Origin: Lentisphaerota bacterium
GTDB taxonomy: Bacteria > Verrucomicrobiota > Kiritimatiellia > JAAZAB01
Direction of reading: 5' to 3'
Assembly: GCA_016182435.1 (NCBI GenBank)
Contig: JACPGN010000118.1
Coordinates: 1-9,124 of the forward strand
DNA: 9,124 bases
Position 1 is the first letter of the stretch. The number at the start of each line of letters is the position of its first letter. A model generated the notes under the pieces. The model searched no databases. It was not told where the DNA came from and saw only the letters and a list, made by a program, of their open reading frames with translations. Of this stretch, positions 1 through 9,124 are shown piece after piece. A program made the translations under genes and the position numbers.

Positions 1-3000
1 GAAGCCAAGGCGCTATTCCTGCCTGAGGGCGCGAGGGAACCGGAGTGGCCGGATGGGCCAAATACGGTCATTAACGTCCACCCGGCGGAATACTGTGGCG
101 CTAACAGCCTGTACAATGCCTTTGTCCGCCAGTTTGGCCGGCAGCTTAAGCCGTCCAGCGCGCTCACGTCAGCGCAGGCCGCTGGTATGCAGGCGCTGCA
201 GAATACCGGTTACGTTGTGATTCCGCCTTCCGGCACTTTCCGGGACCTGCAGCGCCAGTTGGATTTCATTATTGGCCGTTTGCGCTGCCGCATAATCCTG
301 CTCTTGCCCATTCATCCCACGCCGACCGTTTATGGGCGCATGGGCCTCTTCGGCAGTCCCTATGCGGCGCTCGATTTTATGGAGGTGGACCCGGCCCTGG
401 CGGAGTTTGATCCCAAGGCTACGCCGCTGGAGCAGTTCGGCGAGCTGGTGGATGCCATCCACGCCCGCGGGGCGCGGGTCTTCCTGGATATCGCCATCAA
501 CCATACCGGCTGGGCCGCTAAACTCCACAGCGAACATCCCGACTGGCTCCTGCGCGAGAGTGACGGCACGATTCGCTCACCCGGCGCCTGGGGCGTGGTC
601 TGGCGCGATCTTACCGAGCTCGACCACCAGCATGCGGGCCTGTGCCATTACCTGGCGGAGGTTTTTCTTGCCTGGTGCCGACGGGGCGCCGACGGCTTCC
701 GCTGCGACGCCGGCTACATGATTCCAGTCAGCGCCTGGGAGTTTATTACGGCCACCGTGCGCCGCGAATTCCCCGACGCACTTTTCCTTCTCGAAGGCCT
801 GGGCGGCAAGATGGAAACCACCACGGCGCTGCTCAACACGGCCAACCTGAACTGGGCCTATTCCGAACTTTTCCAGAACTATGACCGCCGCCAAATTGAA
901 GGCTATCTGCCGCTCGCCATCCATACCAGCGCAGGCGATGGCATCCTGGTGCACTTCGCGGAAACGCATGACAATAACCGCCTGGCCGCGCGATCAATCC
1001 CCTATGCGCGCATGCGCACGGCGCTCGCCGCGCTCTGTTCCAGCAATGGCGCCTTTGCGTTTGCCAATGGCGTCGAATGGCACGCTACCGAGAAAATTGA
1101 TGTGCACGGCCGCACCGCGCTGGCCTGGGGAGCGAGCGAAAACCAGGTGGACCGGATTACGCGCCTGAATTGCCTGCTGCAGAACCATCCGGCCTTTTTC
1201 GCCGGGGCCCAAGTGCGCCTGATCCACCATCCGGCAGTGCCGGACGGCAATAGCCTTGCCCTCCTGCGCTATTCCCCCGCGGCGGATAAGCGCCTCCTGG
1301 TGTTGATCAACCTGGACGACCAGACGCCACAACCGGTGGCGTGGAATCCGGATGAGGCGGGTCTGGCTGAGCGCGAGATGATTGATTTGCTGACCGGGCG
1401 GGCGGTGGCCATCCCTTTCGCGGACGGTTTAGCGCGGCTGGAATTAGCGCCGGCTGAAGTTCTGTGTCTTAGCCAGTCCGCGCGGGATTTCGAAATGCTT
1501 CTCGCCGCGGAGCGCGACCCTTATTCCTGGCCGCCGGATGTTGTGCGCCGCCAGCAACTGCGCGCCAAGGCCCTGGAGATTGTCAAGGCCAGCCGTGGCT
1601 TAACCCCGGGTGGCGCGGGATTGAGCGATTTTTCCGAGCTGGATCCTGAGCGGCTGGCAATGGAACTGGCGAAAAATCCCGAGGCCTTCTGCAACTCACA
1701 GAATAGGCCCGGGGCCGCGCCGCGGGTTATAACCTGGGAATGGCCGCGCGATTTGAAACGAGAGGTCATGATCCCGCCGTATCACTTTATTTACCTGTGC
1801 GCGCCGATGCCCTTCCAGGCCCGCATCGAGGAGCGGGAGCCAATTGGCGCTCCCTGGCCGAGCCTCGGGCACAGGCTGGCCGGTGTTGCGGCGGCGTCGA
1901 ACTCATCCGGCAAGCTTGCCCCGCATAGTGCGGGGGCCGCCGAGCGAGATCAGTTGACCGGCAAACAGGAGAACTCACTGCCGATGGCTGACGGACGCCA
2001 TTTCGTGATATTTTGTCCTGGGGTCGCGTCGGCGCGGCCCTTGGCAGCCTGGTTAAAACTGTCTGTTTTCGAGCCGGAACGCGCCAGGCATGAAACCGCG
2101 CCGCTGCTTTTTCTGCCGGCGGGAGATGATCTGCGGGTGCCGTTGGTTTTCACGCATAAGGCTCTGCGGGGCATAAATCCAATTATCCTCAGCACCAACG
2201 GACGCGGCGGCATGCTGCGCGCGGGAGTGCGCTGGGCCGAGGTGCGCAGCCGCTATGACGCTCTTCTGGCCGGCAACCTGAATCCGGATTATCCTGAAGA
2301 CCGGCGCATCATGCTGACGCGTTGCCGCGCCTGGCTGGTGTTTCAGGGCTATTCCCAGGATATCACGGTTGACCGATTACAATTTTTCCGGCGCGGGGCG
2401 AACTCCGGTCTATGGCGCTTTCGCGTGCCATTCGGCTATGGCCAGCAAGTGTTTCTGGATATTCACGCGGCAATGATCCCGGAGCGGAATGCCGTGCGGC
2501 TGACGTTCCGCCGGTTGCCTTGCGCGCAGGCCCAAAACTGTTTGGCTGATGACCAGACCGTGCGCCTGATCATCAGGCCGGACATCGAGGATCGTTCCTT
2601 TCACGAAGACACCAAGGCGTTCCTGGGCCCGGAGCGGACCTGGGGCGCCGCGGTGCATCCGGAAGCGGCCGGGCTTGTCTTTGCGCCGGAGGGCGTTCGG
2701 CAGTTGCGCCTAACCGTTTCCGACGGCAGCTTTCAGCCGGAGCCGGAATGGCAATACATGGTTCACCATCCGGTTGAGGCCGAGCGCGGCCAGGAAGCCA
2801 ATGGAGATCTCTTCAGTCCCGGCTACTTTCGCGTACCCCTGGCTGGCGGCGCCGAGGTGCTATTGCTGGCGCAAATACTGACCCCGGCGGAAAGCAAAGC
2901 GGCGACGGAGCCCGTCGCCCTCCAGAGGAATGGGTCATGGAGGGCGGTCGGCTCGACCGCCGGCAATGCAGCGCCGGACGAGCCGCTCTTGGACGTTCTT

Positions 3001-4233
3001 GAGCAGGCCATGCGGCAGTTTATCGTTCGGCGCGGCAAGCAGAAGACGGTGATTGCCGGTTATCCCTGGTTCCTCGACTGGGGCCGTGATACCCTCATTT
3101 GCGCGCGCGGCTTGATCGCCGGGGGTTTGCTTGAGGAGGTCACGGCAATTCTCAAACAATTTGGGGCCTACGAGCAGCAAGGCACGTTGCCGAACATGAT
3201 TTGCGGCGAGGATGCGCGCAACCGCGACACGTCCGATGCGCCTCTGTGGTTTATCGTTGCCTGCGCGGAAGCCTGCCGCGCCCGCAGTCGCTATCCGTCG
3301 GCTGACGGATTGCGGGCGGGTCGCGCCGCTAACCATCCCGACTCTCCGGGAGGTCGGGACCTGTTAGCCCAACGGTGTGGCCAACGGACGCTGCGCGAGG
3401 TCCTGGAATCAATTGTCGAAGGCTATCGGCAGGGCACGCCCAATGGCATCCGGATGGATCCCGCGAGCGGCTTGATTTTCAGTCCGGCGCACTTTACCTG
3501 GATGGACACGAATCATCCGGCCGGCTCGCCCCGTCAAGGCTATCCTATTGAAATTCAAGCGCTCTGGTTTGCGGCCCTTAAGTTCCTGGCTGGCTTGGAT
3601 AAACATGGCGCTTCTTACCAGGCGCTGGCCGATCAGGCACGCAGTTCGATCCATCAGTATTTCTGGAATGAAGAACGCGGGTATTTTGTTGACTGTCTGC
3701 ACGCCCGGGCCGGCCAAGAGGCCGCGCGCGCTATGCCGGACGATGCCTTGCGGCCGAACCAGTTGCTGGCATTGACTTTAGGGGCAGTGGCCGACCGGAC
3801 TCTTGCGGCGCGCGCCTTGGCGGAGTGCGCGCAACTGCTGGTGCCCGGCGCTATCCGCACGCTCGCCGACCGTTCCGTGGAGTATCCCCAGCCCATCATG
3901 CTGGGCAATCGCTTGCTTAACGATCCGTTGCGGCCTTACTGGGGGCGCTACGAGGGGGATGAAGACACGCGCCGCAAGAGCGCCTATCACAACGGCACAG
4001 CCTGGACCTGGCTTTTTCCCTCATTCTGTGAAGCGTGGGTTCAGGTGCATGGCGATAGCGGACGCCCCGCTGCCCTGGCGTGGCTGGGCAGCAGCGTTCA
4101 ACTGATGAGTCGCGGCTGTCTGGGCCAGGTTCCGGAAATCCTGGATGGCGATTACCCGCACACCCCGCGCGGCTGTGATGCCCAGGCTTGGGGCGTGACC
4201 GAACTGTATCGGGTCCTGAAAAGTCTGCGTTGA
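1..4233 (+). CDS. Bifunctional glycogen debranching enzyme (GH13 glucanotransferase + GDE_C amylo-1,6-glucosidase), 5'-truncated
   Basis: The frame is open from base 1, so the true start lies outside the window; the ATG at 187 is internal. 1410 residues are visible (codon 1 = base 1). An N-terminal GH13 barrel (about 80-430) has all four conserved regions: DIAINH at 163-168, GFRCDAG with nucleophile Asp236, LLEG with acid/base Glu265, and ETHDNNR with His323-Asp324. A middle beta domain of GDE_N type spans about 510-960. The C-terminal (alpha/alpha)6 GDE_C domain (about 1000-1405) shows GYPWFLDWGRDT (1020-1031), TWMD (1166-1169), PIEIQALW (1182-1189), YHNGTAWTW (1329-1337) and GCDAQAWG (1391-1398). 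By family knowledge such proteins move maltosyl/maltotriosyl stubs and then hydrolyse the alpha-1,6 branch glucose of glycogen in the cytoplasm. Three linkers, about residues 615-660, 970-990 and 1094-1120, look longer than family norm and coincide with DNA palindromes. No catalytic residue is missing. Confidence 0.93.
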   Translation, partial: EAKALFLPEGAREPEWPDGPNTVINVHPAEYCGANSLYNAFVRQFGRQLKPSSALTSAQAAGMQALQNTGYVVIPPSGTFRDLQRQLDFIIGRLRCRIILLLPIHPTPTVYGRMGLFGSPYAALDFMEVDPALAEFDPKATPLEQFGELVDAIHARGARVFLDIAINHTGWAAKLHSEHPDWLLRESDGTIRSPGAWGVVWRDLTELDHQHAGLCHYLAEVFLAWCRRGADGFRCDAGYMIPVSAWEFITATVRREFPDALFLLEGLGGKMETTTALLNTANLNWAYSELFQNYDRRQIEGYLPLAIHTSAGDGILVHFAETHDNNRLAARSIPYARMRTALAALCSSNGAFAFANGVEWHATEKIDVHGRTALAWGASENQVDRITRLNCLLQNHPAFFAGAQVRLIHHPAVPDGNSLALLRYSPAADKRLLVLINLDDQTPQPVAWNPDEAGLAEREMIDLLTGRAVAIPFADGLARLELAPAEVLCLSQSARDFEMLLAAERDPYSWPPDVVRRQQLRAKALEIVKASRGLTPGGAGLSDFSELDPERLAMELAKNPEAFCNSQNRPGAAPRVITWEWPRDLKREVMIPPYHFIYLCAPMPFQARIEEREPIGAPWPSLGHRLAGVAAASNSSGKLAPHSAGAAERDQLTGKQENSLPMADGRHFVIFCPGVASARPLAAWLKLSVFEPERARHETAPLLFLPAGDDLRVPLVFTHKALRGINPIILSTNGRGGMLRAGVRWAEVRSRYDALLAGNLNPDYPEDRRIMLTRCRAWLVFQGYSQDITVDRLQFFRRGANSGLWRFRVPFGYGQQVFLDIHAAMIPERNAVRLTFRRLPCAQAQNCLADDQTVRLIIRPDIEDRSFHEDTKAFLGPERTWGAAVHPEAAGLVFAPEGVRQLRLTVSDGSFQPEPEWQYMVHHPVEAERGQEANGDLFSPGYFRVPLAGGAEVLLLAQILTPAESKAATEPVALQRNGSWRAVGSTAGNAAPDEPLLDVLEQAMRQFIVRRGKQKTVIAGYPWFLDWGRDTLICARGLIAGGLLEEVTAILKQFGAYEQQGTLPNMICGEDARNRDTSDAPLWFIVACAEACRARSRYPSADGLRAGRAANHPDSPGGRDLLAQRCGQRTLREVLESIVEGYRQGTPNGIRMDPASGLIFSPAHFTWMDTNHPAGSPRQGYPIEIQALWFAALKFLAGLDKHGASYQALADQARSSIHQYFWNEERGYFVDCLHARAGQEAARAMPDDALRPNQLLALTLGAVADRTLAARALAECAQLLVPGAIRTLADRSVEYPQPIMLGNRLLNDPLRPYWGRYEGDEDTRRKSAYHNGTAWTWLFPSFCEAWVQVHGDSGRPAALAWLGSSVQLMSRGCLGQVPEILDGDYPHTPRGCDAQAWGVTELYRVLKSLR
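1876..1945. repeat. Palindromic segment inside the debranching enzyme (mid-domain linker)
   Basis: Two adjoining perfect palindromes lie within the open frame: ggcaagcttgcc at 1909-1920 and the hairpin ccccgca-tag-tgcgggg at 1919-1935, enclosed by weaker cggcgg/ccgccg arms. They encode a Ser/Gly/Ala-rich linker between the recognisable PFQARIE and SLPMADGRHF blocks, where I expect only a short loop in relatives. The family of this repeat is not identified; its core (cccgca...tgcggg) resembles a deletion form of the dispersed repeat found elsewhere in the window. Confidence 0.5.
2918..2961. repeat. Double hairpin inside the debranching enzyme, before the GDE_C domain
   Basis: Two consecutive inverted repeats overlap by two bases: ccctcca (2918-2924) with tggaggg (2938-2944), and ggcggtc (2943-2949) with gaccgcc (2955-2961). 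The segment codes in frame for part of a low-conservation linker between the GDE_N-type domain and the GDE_C domain, where length variation should be tolerated. Confidence 0.5.
3281..3360. repeat. In-frame copy of a dispersed palindromic repeat within the GDE_C domain
   Basis: 3281-3320 has outer arms cccgca/tgcggg and a perfect inner stem atccgtc-ggct-gacggat. Its ends match the intergenic copy at 4301-4334, sharing agtcgctat on the left and ttgcgggcggg on the right. It is followed by a second hairpin, tcccgac (3336-3342) with gtcggga (3353-3359). Together they encode roughly residues 1094-1120, between the WFIVACAEA and RTLREVL blocks that are normally separated by a shorter loop. The reading frame is preserved. 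Confidence 0.7.
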
Positions 4234-4299
4234 AAAGTTTGGGGCGTGTTGCTCAAATCAAATCCGGCCTCAGCGCGGCCGGCTACAGAACGCAACCCA

Positions 4300-4348
4300 G
4301 CCCGTAGTCGCTATGCGCCAGCGTTGCGGGCGGGAACGGGCATTTTTT
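4300..4348 (+). terminator. Possible intrinsic terminator downstream of the debranching enzyme
   Basis: Outer stem gcccgt (4300-4305) with acgggc (4336-4341) and inner stem cgct/agcg are followed by A and six T residues (4343-4348). It lies about 66 bases after the stop codon and is built from the dispersed repeat copy. The stem is interrupted, so termination strength is uncertain. Confidence 0.4.
4301..4334 (+). repeat. Dispersed palindromic repeat, copy B
   Basis: It has the left part cccgtagtcgctat and right part ttgcgggcggg, matching the ends of the intragenic copy at 3281-3320 but with a shorter centre. It is embedded in the MITE-like element. Confidence 0.65.
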
Positions 4349-4481
4349 CGTTGTAGCCGGGGGCGGTGACCCCGGTATTTTGGCATCGTCCGGTTTTGGG
4401 CAACACGCCCTTTAAAGTCTATCCGGCCCATGTCGGTTTTTCTGCTTGCATTCGGCAGGGGGATTAATTAGCGTCGGCCGC

Positions 4482-4554
<73 letters not shown>

Positions 4555-4658
4555 TTTATCAAGAAATTACGCTTGCGTTCTTCGGGCGGTTGTAATAGGA
4601 ATAGCTTTCATCCGTATTCAGCTATAGCCAGCGTAACTTGTCAGGGAACTTTGACGCC

Positions 4659-5951
4659 ATGGCCAAAATCTTACTGGTAGATGACGAACCGAGCATTCTG
4701 AGCGTATTGAGCGTTCTGCTTAAGGCGGAAGGCTATGAGGTCGTGCCCTGCGATGGCGGCGATAAAGCGGTGGAATTGATCAAAAACACGCCATTCGATC
4801 TTATGCTTTCGGATATTCGCATGCGCCCGGTTGACGGGATGCAACTGCTCAAGCTGGCCGTGGAACACCAGCCTTCAATGGCGGTGTTGATGCTCACGGG
4901 TTATGGCACGGTGGAAACGGCCGTGGAGTCTTTGAAGCTGGGCGCCTTCGATTATATTACCAAACCTTTTAAGCTGGATGAACTGCTGATCACGGTTAAG
5001 CGCGCCCTGGAATATAACAAGGCCCTGAGCGAAAACGTGCAGTTAAAAGCTCAGCTTACCGGGCAGTACCAGTTTGAAAACATCGTGGCCGAAAGCCGCA
5101 CCATGCGCAACGTGTGCGAAATGATCGAGCGCGTGGCGCCGACCGATACCACCGTGCTGATTTATGGGGAAAGCGGCACGGGCAAGGAGTTGGTGGCTAA
5201 GGCCATCCATGCTCACAGCAATCGCAAGACCAAAAAGTTTCTGCCGCTCAACTGCGCGGCCTTGCCGGAACCGCTCCTGGAATCGGAATTGTTCGGCCAT
5301 ATGAAAGGCGCGTTTACCGGCGCCAGCGCCGATAAGGAAGGTCTCTTTGAAGTGGCCGATCAGGGCACCATTTTTCTGGATGAAATTGATTCCATGCCGC
5401 TCAATATCCAGGCCAAACTATTGCGGGTCCTGCAGGATAAGGAAATCCGCCGGGTAGGCGGCAATGAGACGATTCAGGTGGATGTCCGGGTTCTGGCGGC
5501 TATCAGTACGCGCCTGGAACTCTTGATCGAGCAGGGCAAGTTCCGCGAGGATCTTTATTATCATTTTTTGCGCCAGGAAACCGGGGGCAATAAGACCATG
5601 CCAACGATGGATGCTGACGTTATCAGCCTGTTTGAGCAGTATGCCTGGCCGGGCAATGTCCGTGAACTTGAAAATGCCCTGAAACATGCCCTGACCTTCG
5701 CCAAGGATAATGTGATTATCCGGGATTGCCTGCCGGCTAAACTGTCGCAAAGCGCCGCTTCCGTAGTGAGTGGGCAAAGGAAGTTGGATGATTTCCGCGG
5801 GAAATCGCTGAAAGCCTTCCTACGCTCGAAGGAGAAGGAGTATCTGTCCCAGGCCCTCGCGTATACGGATGGGGACAAACAAAAAGCGGCTAAAGCCTTG
5901 AGAATCAGCCTCGCTACCCTCTATCGCAAGTTGCCGGAGCCAAAAGATTAG
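4659..5951 (+). CDS. NtrC-family sigma-54-dependent response regulator with shortened AAA+ domain
   Basis: 430 residues from ATG 4659, preceded by AGGGA at 4643-4647; the in-frame TTG at 4638 would add seven residues upstream of the usual receiver-domain start. The receiver domain (1-120) has Asp8-Asp9, phospho-acceptor Asp52, Thr80 and Lys102. The AAA+ domain (about 145-365) has Walker A GESGTGKE (170-177), the sigma-54-contacting GAFTGA loop (217-222), Walker B LDE (240-242) and WPGNVRELEN from 330 with sensor II Arg335. A Fis-type helix-turn-helix ends the protein (about 385-428). After FREDLYY (295-301) the sequence jumps to HFLRQ. The usual segment with the LYYR arginine and PPLRER-EDI motif, about 24 residues, is absent. 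The sensor I region reads AAISTRLE rather than the common AATNRDLE. Phosphorylation by an unlinked histidine kinase is expected. Proximity to a sigma-54 promoter and pilin gene suggests a PilR-like role, but activity is doubtful. Confidence 0.93.
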   Translation: MAKILLVDDEPSILSVLSVLLKAEGYEVVPCDGGDKAVELIKNTPFDLMLSDIRMRPVDGMQLLKLAVEHQPSMAVLMLTGYGTVETAVESLKLGAFDYITKPFKLDELLITVKRALEYNKALSENVQLKAQLTGQYQFENIVAESRTMRNVCEMIERVAPTDTTVLIYGESGTGKELVAKAIHAHSNRKTKKFLPLNCAALPEPLLESELFGHMKGAFTGASADKEGLFEVADQGTIFLDEIDSMPLNIQAKLLRVLQDKEIRRVGGNETIQVDVRVLAAISTRLELLIEQGKFREDLYYHFLRQETGGNKTMPTMDADVISLFEQYAWPGNVRELENALKHALTFAKDNVIIRDCLPAKLSQSAASVVSGQRKLDDFRGKSLKAFLRSKEKEYLSQALAYTDGDKQKAAKALRISLATLYRKLPEPKD

Positions 5952-5990
5952 TGCCTCAGCCAGCAGGAACCTTCATAAAAAACAAGAATG

Positions 5991-6186
5991 TTTCCGCCTG
6001 AAGCGGACCCGCAGAGGAGGGAACCACGCGCGGCGCGTGGCAAGCCACGGACTCGTCCCGCGCTTCGCGGGATGGCACGGATAACACTGATTGTTGACGG
6101 CCGCCCGGCGGCCGTCAACGGTCTGACCATCCGTGAAATCCGTGTAATCAGTGGTTTCCGCCATAGCGGATCCGTCTGAGGAGGAA
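5991..6186. repeat. Composite palindromic element bounded by a partial direct repeat
   Basis: The two ends share tttccgcc, agcgga, ccg and aggagg in the same order (5991-6019 and 6155-6183), each end being a small hairpin tccgc/gcgga. Between them lie ccacgcg/cgcgtgg (6024-6030, 6034-6040), tcccgcg-ctt-cgcggga (6056-6072), cactgatt (6085-6092) with aatcagtg (6146-6153), and a perfect 12-bp stem gttgacggccgc (6093-6104) with its complement at 6108-6119. The heptamer atccgtg occurs twice (6129, 6138) with an inverted copy near 6076. No coding function is apparent. Confidence 0.6.
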
Positions 6187-6412
6187 ATTTCTTTGGGTTG
6201 CGCGCATAGACCACATTGGGTATTAATCAGGAAGTAAGGCGAAATTAAGCCCGCGAAGCCCAAAATTAAGCATTCATTTTCTAATTTTTGGGAAAATGAC
6301 AGCAGGATTTACACGAAAATATATAAAGAAGTATTTGATCATAGGATAAAATGGTGACTTTTTGTCTCAATAAAATGGAGAAAGCTTAAAATAGAGCGGT
6401 AAAATGGCGCGG
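6187..6412. other. AT-rich intergenic stretch upstream of the pilin promoter
   Basis: No gene is seen. This is the most AT-rich part of the window, rich in A and T runs. It contains a near-perfect inverted repeat cccaaaatta/taatttttggg at 6259-6292 (one extra T in the right arm), the direct repeat aaattaagc at about 6242 and 6263, and repeated taaaatgg octamers at its right end. The position upstream of a sigma-54 promoter suits activator or IHF-like binding, which is inference. Confidence 0.45.
6347..6407 (+). promoter_or_regulatory. Cluster of taaaatgg repeats, candidate activator sites
   Basis: The octamer taaaatgg occurs at 6347-6354, 6371-6378 and 6400-6407, with the variant taaaatag at 6387-6394. 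The cluster lies about 70-130 bases upstream of the -24/-12 promoter, the usual distance for enhancer-binding protein sites. In an AT-rich stretch some recurrence is expected by chance, so the role is speculative. Confidence 0.3.
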
Positions 6413-6464
6413 GGCCTCAGCTTGCCTGCCCGCAGTGCTACAGCGTTGCAGGCGGGCTGAGGCC
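6413..6464. repeat. Dispersed palindromic repeat, copy C, with outer arms
   Basis: Perfect outer arms ggcctcag (6413-6420) and ctgaggcc (6457-6464) enclose the repeat core 6425-6457. The core matches the reverse complement of the copy at 8009-8045 almost exactly at both ends, differing mainly by a few missing central bases. It lies just upstream of the sigma-54 promoter. Confidence 0.7.
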
Positions 6465-6474
6465 ATTGGGATCT

Positions 6475-6490
6475 TGGCATACTTCTTGCT
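6475..6490 (+). promoter_or_regulatory. Sigma-54 (-24/-12) promoter for the pilin gene
   Basis: TGGCATACTTCTTGCT matches the sigma-54 consensus TGGCAYRNNNNTTGCW at every defined base, with GG (6476-6477) and GC (6488-6489) exactly 12 apart. Transcription would start near 6500, giving a leader of about 130 bases before the pilin ATG. Sigma-54 control of major pilins by PilR-type activators is known from Pseudomonas, Geobacter and Myxococcus. Confidence 0.75.
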
Positions 6491-6536
6491 TTTATATTTA
6501 CAGAGCTATATTGTAAACTCCAGCAACTTCATTAAG

Positions 6537-6547
6537 AAGGGAGGTGG
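6537..6547 (+). promoter_or_regulatory. Strong Shine-Dalgarno-like sequence in the pilin leader without an obvious start
   Basis: AAGGGAGGTGG is an almost ideal anti-16S match, but no ATG, GTG or TTG lies at standard spacing. The next ATG (6566) is followed at once by TGA, forming a start-stop pair. It may be a ribosome standby site, a leader control element or chance. Confidence 0.3.
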
Positions 6548-6571
6548 AAGGCAATATTTCAAGGTATGTGA

Positions 6572-6625
6572 ATGAACCGAAATGTTGGACTTGGAAAAGA
6601 TGCTAATATAGATAGAGGGAGATAA
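6572..6625 (+). other. Possible 17-codon leader ORF ahead of the pilin gene
   Basis: ATG 6572 to TAA 6623-6625 encodes MNRNVGLGKDANIDRGR. AAGG (6561-6564) precedes it at seven bases, and the stop lies six bases before the pilin ATG, which would allow translational coupling. ORFs this short occur readily by chance and no family is recognised. Confidence 0.2.
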
Positions 6626-6631
6626 AAAGGA

Positions 6632-7030
6632 ATGAAAAAAGGTTTTACATTGGTCGAGATTATGATCGTGGTGGCAATCATCGGGTTGCTGGCTGCGATC
6701 GCGATCCCGTCGTTCTTGCGGGCACGCCTGACATCTCAGCAGAATGCCTGCATTAATAACATTCGTCAGATCGAGGCGGGTAAGGACCAGTATGCTCTGG
6801 AAAATGGTCTTACGAATGAACAGGCAATCGGCGCCAGCGATACGGCGGCATTCGGGTTACTTGTTGGCGGTGCAGCGGGCTACATCAAAGGCTTTCCGCT
6901 GTGTCCGGCTTCGACAAATATCGCCACCCAGCCGCGGACGGCGGCTCTGTCGGCAGCCGACTATGATGTTAACCCGGTTGGCAGCAACACTGCCTGCCTT
7001 AGAGTGCCGGCGACGCACGTGTTGCCTTAA
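6632..7030 (+). CDS. Type IV pilin / type II secretion pseudopilin-like protein
   Basis: 132 residues. The start is typical of class III signal peptides: MKKG cleaved before Phe5, Glu9 at position +5 of the mature protein, then a hydrophobic helix to about residue 28. The prepilin peptidase would cleave and N-methylate it at the inner membrane, and the helix packs in the pilus or pseudopilus core. The following ARLTSQQNACINN block and KDQYALENG are typical of short PVC/Omnitrophota pilin-like proteins. Cys91 and Cys122 could form a C-terminal disulfide loop; Cys40 lies near the helix. GAGGGAGA at 6615-6622 gives a good ribosome binding site. The gene is monocistronic: a sigma-54 promoter lies upstream and an intrinsic terminator follows closely. 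Sequence alone does not separate pilus subunit from secretion pseudopilin. Confidence 0.9.
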   Translation: MKKGFTLVEIMIVVAIIGLLAAIAIPSFLRARLTSQQNACINNIRQIEAGKDQYALENGLTNEQAIGASDTAAFGLLVGGAAGYIKGFPLCPASTNIATQPRTAALSAADYDVNPVGSNTACLRVPATHVLP

Positions 7031-7052
7031 TACGACGGAATTGTTCGATAAG

Positions 7053-7088
7053 GAGCTCCACCCCGCGCGGGGGTGGAGCTCTTTTTTT
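7053..7088 (+). terminator. Strong intrinsic terminator of the pilin gene
   Basis: A perfect 12-bp stem, gagctccacccc (7053-7064) and ggggtggagctc (7070-7081), with loop gcgcg is followed by seven T residues (7082-7088). It begins 22 bases after the pilin stop codon. Confidence 0.95.
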
Positions 7089-7111
7089 GGGTGTAGGAAT
7101 TTTCCGAGTTG

Positions 7112-7173
7112 GTAGGAGGGGCACTACATGCCGCGATTTCGGCGACCGTCGCCGCGCATAGCGCGCCTCCCAC
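7112..7173. repeat. Imperfect palindromic element
   Basis: Ends gtaggaggggc (7112-7122) and gcgcctcccac (7163-7173) are inverted copies with two mismatches. The centre holds the hairpin cggcga-ccg-tcgccg (7140-7154). It is non-coding and looks like an intergenic repeat unit; other copies are not present in this window. Confidence 0.5.
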
Positions 7174-7203
7174 ATAGAAAGCGTGAAACAATTGCGTTTA
7201 TTT

Positions 7204-7230
7204 CCTCTCCCTTGGGAGAGGGCCTTTTTT
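7204..7230 (+). repeat. Solo hairpin with T run, partial copy of the neighbouring cruciform
   Basis: cctctccc (7204-7211) and gggagagg (7214-7221) form an 8-bp stem, followed after GCC by six T residues. It repeats the first arm of the element starting at 7234 and could act as a weak terminator. Confidence 0.45.
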
Positions 7231-7233
7231 ATT

Positions 7234-7328
7234 CCCTCTCCCTTGGGAGAGGGCAGGGTGAGGGGAGTCTGAGCGGTTGCCCCTCACCCGATCCCGCAAC
7301 GCGGGATCGACCTCTCCCGAGGGAGAGG
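7234..7328. repeat. Large cruciform-type palindromic element abutting the nitroreductase start
   Basis: In order: hairpin ccctctccc-tt-gggagaggg (7234-7253), arm gggtgagggg (7256-7265), its complement cccctcaccc (7280-7289), hairpin gatcccgc-aac-gcgggatc (7290-7308), and hairpin cctctccc-ga-gggagagg (7311-7328). Related CCTCTCCC/GGGTGAGG repeats are common intergenic elements in many bacteria. Confidence 0.7.
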
Positions 7329-7330
7329 TG
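7322..7330 (+). promoter_or_regulatory. Ribosome binding site formed by the right arm of the palindromic element
   Basis: GGAGAGGTG is the only purine-rich Shine-Dalgarno candidate before the ATG at 7342, with 11 bases between. Seven of its nine bases belong to the stem gggagagg that pairs with cctctccc (7311-7318), so folding of the repeat RNA would hide it. Confidence 0.55.
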
Positions 7331-7341
7331 AACTAAAAAAC

Positions 7342-7950
7342 ATGCATCCCAAGACATTCAAAACATTGGTGGTTAAGACCCGGACAGTTCGGCGGTTCCA
7401 TCAGGAGTTTCGGGTTAAACGGTCTGAGCTGTTGGAGCTGGTAGACCTGGCCCGGCTTTCGGCTTCCGGGGGCAATTTGCAATCGCTTAAATTTATCCTA
7501 TCCTGCGAGTCAAAGCGCAATGAGCGGATCTTTCCCTGCCTGGCGTGGGCCGGTTATCTCAAGGGGTGGGGTGGTCCGGCGGAAGGCGAGCGTCCGGCGG
7601 CCTATATTATCATCCTGGGCGATACCACGATTCGCCGGGATTTCGGCTGTGACCACGGTATTGCCGCCCAGAGCATGATGCTGGGCGCCACGGCCAGGGG
7701 GTTGGGCGGCTGTATTATCGGCTCCATCCAGCGGGAGCGCCTGCGTTCTGCGCTGGCCATTCCGGGCGAATATGAAATTCTCCTGGCACTGGCCCTGGGC
7801 CGGCCGAAGGAAAAAGTCATCCTGGAAACCGTGAAAGATGGCGATATTAAATACTGGCGGGATAACAAAAGCGATATTAAATACTGGCGGGATAACAAAA
7901 GTCGGCATCACGTGCCCAAACGCTCCCTGCGCGAGATTGTGCTGGAATAG
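7342..7950 (+). CDS. Nitroreductase-family flavoprotein with internal tandem duplication
   Basis: 202 residues. The N-terminal KTRTVRRF (12-19) is the family's FMN-phosphate-binding arginine motif. SASGGNLQSLKF follows where the family has its ligand-binding S-x-x-N-x-Q block, then a mid-protein AAYIIILGD strand and a C-terminal CDHGIAAQSMMLGATARGLG helix, which in the family packs at the dimer and flavin interface. The length suits the small single-domain nitroreductases, NAD(P)H-dependent oxidoreductases acting as dimers in the cytoplasm; the substrate cannot be told. DIKYWRDNKS occurs twice in a row (168-177 and 178-187) just before the conserved-looking HHVPKR (189-194). One copy is expected, so the protein carries a ten-residue insertion near its C-terminus. 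It stands alone, between palindromic elements. Confidence 0.9.
   Translation: MHPKTFKTLVVKTRTVRRFHQEFRVKRSELLELVDLARLSASGGNLQSLKFILSCESKRNERIFPCLAWAGYLKGWGGPAEGERPAAYIIILGDTTIRRDFGCDHGIAAQSMMLGATARGLGGCIIGSIQRERLRSALAIPGEYEILLALALGRPKEKVILETVKDGDIKYWRDNKSDIKYWRDNKSRHHVPKRSLREIVLE
7841..7900 (+). repeat. Perfect 30-bp tandem duplication within the nitroreductase gene
   Basis: Bases 7841-7870 and 7871-7900 are identical over all 30 positions. The length is a multiple of three, so the frame is kept and ten residues are repeated. Absence of any mismatch points to a recent event, or to an assembly or library artefact. Confidence 0.97.
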
Positions 7951-8008
7951 ATTGCGCTGAAAAACCCGGCGGACGACACGGAGGTCGTTAATGACCGTGC
8001 GAGTGCTT

Positions 8009-8045
8009 GCCCGCCTGCAACGCTATGCGTAGCATTGCGGGCAGG
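8009..8045 (-). repeat. Dispersed palindromic repeat, copy D
   Basis: On the minus strand it reads cctgcccgcaatgctacg at its start and ends in gcgttgcaggcgggc, matching copy C (6425-6457) on the plus strand at both ends. The centre holds the small palindrome gcta-tgcg-tagc. It directly abuts the inverted repeat at 8045-8109. Confidence 0.75.
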
Positions 8046-8109
8046 TCATTCCCATGAAAATGGGAATCCAGAAAAAGTCAGACTGGATTCCCGCCTACGC
8101 GGGAATGAC
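8045..8109. mobile_element. Short MITE-like palindrome with 27-base arms
   Basis: The left arm (8045-8071) and right arm (8083-8109) are inverted copies apart from their central loops, separated by 11 bases. Each arm contains its own hairpin: attccca/tgggaat on the left and attcccgc-ctac-gcgggaat on the right. The attcccg...cgggaat and ctggattccc motifs resemble widespread short palindromic repeats in bacterial genomes. It has no coding capacity. Confidence 0.65.
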
Positions 8110-8174
8110 AGATGCATAAATTAGCCTTTATTAGAATGACTACAATTTCAAATATGTTTGGCTAGATCTCTGCC

Positions 8175-8939
8175 ATGAAAATCCTGGCTTTGGCGGCGCA
8201 TCCGGATGATATCGAGTTCTTGTGCGCCGGCACGCTGATTCTGCTTAAAGAGCGCGGCCATGCGATTGCCCTGGCCACGATCAACAACGGCTCCTGCGGT
8301 TCGGCCACGCTGCCGCCGGATGAGATTGTCCGGATTCGCGCTGGCGAGGCGCGCGCCGCCGCTGCGCTGATCGGCGCAACGTATGAGTGCCTCGGAATCC
8401 CCGACCTGGAATCCGTGTTTGACAATCCCACCCGGCGCAAAGTCGCGGAACTGTTGCGGCGTGCGCAACCTGATATCGTCTTTACCCATTACCCGGGCGA
8501 CTATATGGCTGACCATGAGATTGCCGGCCAGTTGGCCCGCGACGCGACCTTTACGGCGACCCTGGGCAATTATTCCACGGGTGCGCAGCCCGCGGCGCCG
8601 ATCCTTAAACGTTTGCCGTATCTTTACTATTTTGCGACCGTGGAGAGCCGGGACCATTTCGGCCAGGATGTGCCTTTAGACCTGATTGTGGATATTGGCG
8701 CGGCGCTGGACAAAAAAGTGGCCATGCTGTGCTGCCACGCCTCCCAGCGCGAATGGCTGCGGCATGAGCACGGCATTGATGAATACGTTGATTTCCTGAA
8801 GCGGGAAGCGGCTCGGCTCGGGAAGCGCCGTGGTTGTGCCTTTGGCGAGGGATTCCGCCAGCACCGCGGCCACGCCTATCCGCATGATGATATTCTGAAA
8901 ACACTGTTGACCCAGGAACCGAAAAAGAAAGGAGCATAA
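8175..8939 (+). CDS. PIG-L family (LmbE-like) zinc-dependent deacetylase
   Basis: 254 residues. The zinc-binding AHPDD motif is at 8-12 (ligands His9 and Asp12, with Asp11 the expected catalytic base) and ADHE follows with His114 as third ligand. A Rossmann-like start (MKILALAAHPDD) and the R-x-x-E-A-x-x-A-A-x-x-I-G-A helix after it are typical. Family members remove N-acetyl groups from GlcNAc-type sugars or sugar conjugates such as mycothiol or bacillithiol precursors and GlcNAc-PI; the substrate here is unknown. The length is usual for the family. No strong ribosome binding site precedes ATG 8175, but MKIL is the natural start. The stop overlaps the next gene's start (TAATG), so the two are probably translated together, pointing to a role in sugar metabolism. 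Confidence 0.93.
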   Translation: MKILALAAHPDDIEFLCAGTLILLKERGHAIALATINNGSCGSATLPPDEIVRIRAGEARAAAALIGATYECLGIPDLESVFDNPTRRKVAELLRRAQPDIVFTHYPGDYMADHEIAGQLARDATFTATLGNYSTGAQPAAPILKRLPYLYYFATVESRDHFGQDVPLDLIVDIGAALDKKVAMLCCHASQREWLRHEHGIDEYVDFLKREAARLGKRRGCAFGEGFRQHRGHAYPHDDILKTLLTQEPKKKGA

Positions 8940-9124
8940 TGAAGTATTCGTTCATGAGTTTTTCATGTCCGCAGTTGACTTTTGTTCAACTGCTGGCTAC
9001 GGCCAAACGTTTTGGTTATGACGGCGTTGAGCCGCGCATTGACGCCGAGCACCGGCACGGCGTGGAAACGGCGGCTTCAGCCGCACAGCGCCAGGAAATT
9101 AAAAAACTGGCCCGCGCTCATGGG
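8939..9124 (+). CDS. Sugar-phosphate isomerase/epimerase (xylose-isomerase-like TIM barrel), 3'-truncated
   Basis: 62 codons are visible from ATG 8939 to the window end. The start shares the A of the upstream TAA stop, and AAAGGAG (8928-8934) gives a ribosome binding site within the upstream gene. The sequence MKYSFMSFSCPQLTF, then LLATAKRFGYDGVEPRID, matches the first beta strand and first helix-strand unit (G-[YF]-D-G-[VI]-E) of the AP-endonuclease-2/IolE-like fold. Members isomerise or epimerise sugars using a divalent metal whose ligands would lie beyond the window. Pairing with the PIG-L deacetylase suggests a short operon on an amino-sugar or related compound; the exact substrate is not inferable. 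Confidence 0.85.
   Translation, partial: MKYSFMSFSCPQLTFVQLLATAKRFGYDGVEPRIDAEHRHGVETAASAAQRQEIKKLARAHG

Follow-up and report, generated by a model that had tools for sequence, protein, structure and literature searches.

We report that a glycogen debranching-enzyme gene in a 9,124-nucleotide stretch of DNA from a Lentisphaerota bacterium (the window: contig JACPGN010000118.1, positions 1 to 9,124) carries, in frame and within its catalytic region, a palindrome that is very probably a copy of a non-autonomous palindromic mobile element of about 36 nt. The element is spread in some genomes labelled Kiritimatiellota or Lentisphaerota, labels that were taken from record titles. An initial annotation of the window had proposed an in-frame dispersed palindrome in the catalytic domain, and this proposal was upheld by homologous proteins, by comparison with the closest relative found, and by empty sites in two other genes. 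That relative is genome G001, a 'Lentisphaerae bacterium' with 81% protein identity to the window, whose locus L003 (JACPGM010000090.1) shows the gene order of the window and 79-90% nucleotide identity in the shared genes. Unless stated otherwise, G001 was surveyed in a sample of 94 stretches of its approximately 3.1-Mb genome: the first 20 kb or less of contigs C1-C75 (75 stretches), 16 more, two stretches with Y1 transposase genes, and L003. Since the 16 were chosen from contigs with known matches, the copy density is biased upward.

The palindrome in the debranching enzyme folds as a single hairpin (-27.4 kcal/mol), and L003 holds a 39-nt copy at the matching position, with arms and flanks nearly equal. 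Comparison with that copy set the limits of the insert at 3276-3320; in the protein alignment, the extra residues begin after A1094. A second hairpin follows at 3336-3359, as the initial annotation had noted. L003 has the first palindrome without the second, for which four further matches (at most five mismatches) were detected in the G001 sample. The repeat had initially been placed at 3281-3360; it is present, with its limits corrected to those of the two palindromes just given. The distance from ACRA to LL is 26 residues in the window protein versus 5 in homologues. The reading frame is kept, as first described, and the net gain is 21 residues (15 from the 45-nt palindrome and six from the second), not about 25. 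The L003 copy scores 29.7 bits with the family model described below, and the window copy is assigned to the family because of this counterpart at the same place and the shared arms. A 121-base query was unmatched in a plasmid collection, and the 11 pattern matches in viral contigs included no relative.

Alignment of homologues (120 matches listed of 5023) revealed clear repeat-derived residues only in the window protein, its L003 counterpart (P0002) and P0003. They were missing from 117 of the 120, confirming the insertion anticipated at about residues 1094-1120; P0005 possibly contains a degenerate form. In most of the matches listed, the segment from ACRA or its equivalent to LL spans about five residues, and a few have other insertions at the loop or just downstream. 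In the gene tree, the window protein and P0002 are sisters (support 1.0), and P0003 lies in a separate clade beside P0004 and P0011, both lacking the repeat. At this loop P0003 holds the element too, together with an additional copy, and its residues LPAALCAALRAG are a literal translation of a family variant present in L123 and L140. The second palindrome is also scattered, occurring in the window, P0003, P0009 and L002, with a related form in P0005. Because both palindromes are scattered over the gene tree, this loop would seem, from the sequences compared, to be a hotspot of insertion and deletion, where repeated insertion, transfer between lineages and repeated loss would be indistinguishable. 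The initial annotation had held that the same residues in homologues from unrelated genomes would speak against an insertion. Only P0003, on another branch of the same clade, has them, and since it carries the element together with a further copy, we argue for a hotspot and not for an old conserved segment. Being common to the window and L003, the insert is probably older than their split. Other length variants were seen in this region: a different insertion, DCGYSFAKATKDRLR, lies in frame in this loop of P0051; GPVHHSLGEGG is inserted a few residues downstream in P0004, P0008 and P0031, which are not grouped on the tree; and L001 and L004 have tandem units at the loop.

A family profile was constructed from 52 seeds found in 1.08 Mb of the G001 sample, giving a consensus of 36 nt. 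An nhmmer search of 1.27 Mb of G001 detected 62 copies (E<0.1); the reversed-sequence control, covering about 1.1 Mb, gave no match at E<1 and four at E<10. The repeats near 4301, 6425 and 8009 of the window, which the initial annotation had related to the in-gene copy, were all recovered as members (Table 1; E values for a search space of about 1.1 Mb). L003 (24 kb) has copies at 3218 and 13178 only; the 8010-8045 copy is absent from it, the L003 spacer being much shorter there. A 13-mer core (at most one mismatch) gave 209 matches in the whole G001 genome versus 30 for the reversed pattern; the corresponding figures were 139 and 37 in G002, 86 and 40 in G003, and 116 and 52 in G004. Of 288 genomes from the phylum, 11 contain a 30-nt core (at most two mismatches), in several cases as identical copies, and its reversed control gave none. 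Of 20 places in carrier genomes, two of them in G001, 18 have CCT ahead of the core and 17 have GGG behind it. Flanks were analyzed for 56 of 65 copies, nine being dropped because they were shorter than 30 nt or near an end. These 56 copies range from 32 to 45 nt, the commonest lengths being 36 nt (26 copies), 38 nt (8), 39 nt (7) and 32 nt (6). Longer repeats were observed around family members as well. An inverted repeat, TCATTCCC...GGGAATGA, adjoins the 8010-8045 copy at window 8046-8108, and as many as 34 matches to the segment 8005-8112, which includes the 36-mer, were found in the G001 sample. Another repeat, at window 6070-6206, has up to 11 there, and one of its relatives carries the L138 copy of the 36-nt family as an insertion.

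Comparison of filled sites with empty ones revealed how the element is inserted. Gap-free empty sites (in the sample or the window, E<=1e-3) were found for 23 of the 56 copies and for 29 when gaps were allowed, versus 1/56 in a swapped-flank control; a looser search (E<=1) gave 34/56. Some empty sites are family members themselves, that is, they represent nested copies. The 6425-6456 copy has an empty site in L124 that matches at 30/30 bases across the junction, and another example is the GTAGGGCGCGTTCG|CCGAACGCGCC hairpin, which is common in its empty state. Target-site duplications of at least 6 nt numbered three over 65 copies versus about 2.5 in shuffled flanks, and the empty/filled pairs show none. 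The GCCGCGCC shared by the L003 flanks was considered as such a duplication and rejected, there being no excess of duplications of this length and none at empty sites. The base before the element is a purine in 42/56 copies and the base after it a pyrimidine in 47/56 (both in 37/56). Among 48 distinct contexts, 10 place the junction at a strong-dyad apex, a site reached by 1.1% of positions drawn at random from the genome and by 1.6% of nearby ones; among the 15 contexts holding any such apex, 10 junctions fall on it versus 2.7 expected. This comparison with random and local positions is the test relied on for apex preference, an earlier one against swapped flanks (14/56 versus 1.5%) having overstated the effect. 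By RNA folding, hairpin loops hold 18/48 junctions versus 23% of the other positions in these sequences (18/48 was attained in 81 of 5000 draws). Since this test is weaker than the dyad test, the apex is a preference and not a rule, and strict targeting of hairpin loops was rejected. GTAG stands beside the stem of the hairpins that hold 12 of the 56 copies. These results showed that insertion occurs with fixed ends, without target-site duplication and without target loss, and that the apices of other hairpin repeats, of which many bear GTAG, are strongly enriched in insertions, which are found in the element's own copies as well.

Spread of the palindromes by template switching during replication or by hairpin-primed copying, free of any transposase, is rather unlikely. 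The lack of an excess of long duplications, the dyad targets, the nested copies and the failure to find a linked mobilizer would all suit such a process, but the ends are fixed in unrelated targets, and largely so across genomes (the CCT and GGG counts above), which indicates site-specific cutting. It is improbable that the 36-mer is cargo, namely the variable loop of GTAG-tagged repetitive extragenic palindrome (REP) hairpins moved together with them by a REP-associated tyrosine transposase (RAYT). Besides the 12/56 copies in GTAG-flanked hairpins, two G178 copies in the same hairpin type speak for it. However, the unit stands alone in genes (exactly 36 nt in the EpmA-like gene), hairpins of this kind often occur empty (outer family A has 23 matches), and other genomes show similar ends in differing flanks.

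Copies inside and outside open reading frames (ORFs), a count suggested by the initial annotation, were scored in G001: 12 of the 62 copies lie in frame in ten ORFs, and 50 are outside or unassigned. Coding was judged with a home-made score whose distributions overlap (5th percentile of coding sequence -0.06, 95th percentile of wrong frames 0.14). At a threshold of -0.15, 17 of 65 copies passed, from which five were removed: L151, probably upstream of a start, and L142, L132, L127 and L212, in ORFs of 63-129 aa. L167, L162 and L155:10622 were excluded too, since they probably represent upstream sequence. Among the ten ORFs, confidence is lowest for L176 and L190, which passed narrowly, and for L164, which has no Pfam match. 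Pfam domains were found in nine of the ten (Table 1); the tenth is likely a membrane protein. We take the names EpmA and HldE from domain content, Pfam giving tRNA-synt_2 and CTP_transf_like. In the best alignments, solved relatives of HflX, RtcB, BioF and MoeA lack the inserted residues, the HflX copy being part of a 51-residue gap; the alignment of the EpmA-like protein with a lysyl-tRNA synthetase structure was less clean. Exact empty sites were found by DNA alignment in two of these genes: six orthologues of the EpmA-like gene lack the 36 nt, and six orthologues of the RtcB gene lack 75 nt, which correspond to a 36-mer and a nested 39-mer. The RtcB spacer has 15 residues in 119 of the 120 matches listed versus 40 in the G001 protein. 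The BioF gene (L155:8241-9677) appears to hold a nested set, in which two additional family members interrupt a reversed 36-mer, with about 38 extra residues. In the 36-nt consensus, four of six frames are free of stops, and all four are represented among the in-gene copies. As 36 nt equals 12 codons and four frames are open, a copy landing in a gene would often add a loop of 12-13 residues, and the gene would survive.

The insert in the debranching enzyme was modelled with AlphaFold2, using the window segment and 59 of 75 homologous segments that were usable. The model has a mean predicted local distance difference test (pLDDT) score of 87 and a predicted template modelling (pTM) score of 0.90, and its fold matches the yeast debranching enzyme 7eim (probability 1.00). 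The pLDDT falls to 45-48 over model residues 111-130 (protein 1100-1119), versus 97 over 91-100 and 93 over 131-140. The insert is placed between two GDE_C helices, where most homologues are short, and its first residues extend a helix. The initial annotation had proposed to see from a model whether the insert is a surface loop: residues 1100-1119 are modelled at low confidence, the start of the insert is predicted as helical, and the insert would be exposed at the protein surface. In-gene copies are probably tolerated passengers and not functional parts. Retention of the added loop by selection for a changed enzyme function is distinctly improbable: the element occurs in both the window and L003, and P0003 has it once more together with an additional copy, but it differs in length and sequence, confidence of the model is low over much of the loop, and functionally unrelated proteins have been struck. 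A fast-evolving GC-rich linker with a chance likeness to the repeat is hardly credible, since, despite the length variants of relatives at this loop (the L001 and L004 tandem units, GPVHHSLGEGG) and the failure of the family model on the window copy, the score of the L003 copy largely refutes it, that copy agrees with a subfamily pattern matched 11 more times in the loci retrieved (certain places being counted twice), and P0003 reproduces a family variant literally.

The element is very probably a mobile one, inserted with its ends fixed and its target neither duplicated nor lost. A DDE-type transposase is disfavored by the lack of clear target-site duplications. Single-strand chemistry, as of TnpA-REP, would suit insertion that leaves the target unduplicated, and Y1 single-strand enzymes, which are present in G001, fit; PF01797 was found in 25 of 29 relatives. 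As the likeliest engine we tentatively propose a transposase acting on single-stranded hairpins, for instance a Y1/HUH enzyme of the IS200/IS605-RAYT type. An association of the RAYT or REPtron kind was rejected, the flanks of 30 Y1 loci having been scanned without revealing one.

Several observations weigh against the interpretation given here or against parts of it. The in-gene copy of the window did not reach E 10 with the consensus nhmmer model, because its apex differs. A single insertion with no later loss does not account for the scatter of both inserts over the gene tree, and the start of the insert (model block 101-110) has a pLDDT of 81, with a helix predicted to residue 108. Single in-gene copies are codon multiples in 6/6 cases versus 28/46 of the others (p 0.066), which is suggestive only; selection on the gene would require such lengths in any case. 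Matches of 4-5 nt around the junction numbered 22 versus 11.5 in shuffles, the target bases show only the purine|pyrimidine lean, and the 18/48 junctions in folded loops are little above the 32% obtained at random genomic positions. GTAG or CGTC adjoins the ends of only two of the 56 copies. As regards the enzyme, Y1 transposase genes occur in 8/8 of the carriers tested (of 11), yet also in 5/14 unrelated controls; a single copy (E<0.1) was found in 30 Y1 neighborhoods (89 kb); and L195 and L196, the two stretches with Y1 genes of G001, contained none, one of these genes lying at a contig end.

The initial annotation had likened the repeat to Rickettsia palindromic elements (RPEs). The likeness in behavior stands: both are dispersed palindromes found between genes and in frame in conserved genes, and the element would, by analogy, act functionally like an RPE. 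Identity with RPEs is set aside. Classical RPEs are given as 105-146 bp in the excerpted text of PMC2229807, versus a unit of 36-39 nt here in another phylum; and RPE-4 and RPE-6, which excerpts of PMC3733652 describe as short CGTC-tagged repeats, differ by their tag, which is missing from this family. According to the same excerpts, GTAG/CGTC REPs are 20-40-nt hairpins, single or grouped, mostly intergenic and in some cases genic and in frame, and a few REP families are located within other palindromes. The present family resembles them as so described, being a stem-loop of that size, high in copy number and mostly intergenic, but it differs in the near absence of the terminal tetranucleotides, in inserting into the loops of GTAG-tagged hairpins, and in the lack of association with Y1 genes at the 30 loci and two G001 stretches. 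Like the REPs mobilized by TnpA-REP, a Y1 HUH enzyme, the copies are short, non-autonomous and numerous hairpins; the GTAG motif that, with a CT cleavage context, is assigned to TnpA-REP in excerpts of PMC8266576 was not seen at their ends. REPtrons differ in that copies flank the Y1 gene, versus one of 30 Y1 loci here and neither L195 nor L196. Bacterial miniature inverted-repeat transposable elements are likewise small and non-autonomous with inverted repeats, and sometimes fused in frame to genes (PMC2229807, excerpts), but the present element is much shorter and its empty/filled pairs lack target-site duplication. The novelty claimed by the initial annotation for organisms of this kind is reduced. 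REPs inside genes were described in 2013, in a survey where Opitutus terrae (Verrucomicrobia) exceeded all other species in intragenic GTAG repeats (PMC3733652, excerpts), so the phenomenon is known in the superphylum. Titles and abstract openings of the open-licence literature reported neither this repeat nor intragenic palindromes in Kiritimatiellota or Lentisphaerota, and the family itself, its preference for hairpin apices and its 12-codon unit appear to be new.

Table 1. Location of the palindromes, their host genes and related features
Feature	Location	Strand	Evidence and remarks
Debranching enzyme, GH13-like + GDE_N + GDE_C; host of the insert	1..4233	+	ORF; Pfam PF00128, PF12439, PF06202; 5' end beyond the window
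In-frame palindromic element, 45-nt variant of the 36-nt family	3276..3320	+	Codons 1092-1107; protein insertion, hairpin, L003 counterpart
Second palindrome	3336..3359	+	Net +18 nt versus L003; similar to a distinct, sparse family
Intergenic copy, subfamily CCAGCCCG(C/T)AGTCGCTAYGCGCCAGCGTTGCGGGCGGG	4297..4334	+	nhmmer E 1.6e-6; matching L003 spacer without copy
Outer hairpin GGCCTCAGCTTG / CTGAGGCC, interrupted by the 6425-6456 copy	6413..6464	+	
Intergenic copy, 32-nt variant, in the loop of another hairpin	6425..6456	+	nhmmer E 4.1e-6; absent from L003
Intergenic copy, identical to G001 copies in L132, L156 and L164	8010..8045	-	nhmmer E 6e-12
EpmA-like synthetase homologue	G001		In-frame copy; Pfam
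RtcB	G001		Two copies, nested; Pfam
BioF/KBL	G001		Two or more copies, nested; Pfam
HflX	G001		In-frame copy; Pfam
MoeA	G001		In-frame copy; Pfam
Cytidylyltransferase	G001		In-frame copy; Pfam
Radical SAM protein	G001		In-frame copy; Pfam
HD-domain protein	G001		In-frame copy; Pfam
Debranching enzyme	G001		In-frame copy at the site of the window; Pfam

Downstream of the debranching enzyme, the window contains genes for tRNA-Lys, a sigma-54 response regulator, a pilin-like protein, a nitroreductase and a PIG-L protein. Analysis with Rfam detected the tRNA and a borderline match to whalefall-1 RNA in a repeat-rich spacer (7280-7331, minus strand; 37 bits, cut-off 37 bits). In the nitroreductase gene, an exact 30-bp tandem duplication lies in frame at 7841-7900, and the L003 gene is about 30 nt shorter. 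Elsewhere in the debranching enzyme, an inverted repeat is located at 2900-2962 in the linker between GDE_N and GDE_C, where P0009 and P0005 have other long inserts, and a stretch of about 35 residues, WPSLGHRLAGVAAASNSSGKLAPHSAGAAERD (1843-1960), is missing from most of 22 aligned homologues.

These findings extend protein-coding palindromic elements to uncultured Kiritimatiellota and Lentisphaerota, with a unit so short that insertions in RtcB, HflX, MoeA and a class II synthetase-like protein survived. Pairs of empty and filled sites within a single genome make the chemistry of insertion (no duplication, hairpin apex) directly testable. It is conceivable, though we hold it doubtful, that the family represents a hairpin-to-hairpin system, in which an untagged 36-nt palindrome enters the loops of folded single strands and acts as a recurrent generator of in-frame loops. 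If so, its targets would be foreign REP hairpins, its own copies and segments of genes, the same enzyme loop would have been struck more than once in related lineages, and, the unit being 12 codons with four open frames, the process would generate protein loops. Short clade-specific inserts in the proteins of such genomes may be mobile DNA and not adaptation, and selfish DNA may be a source of new protein pieces.

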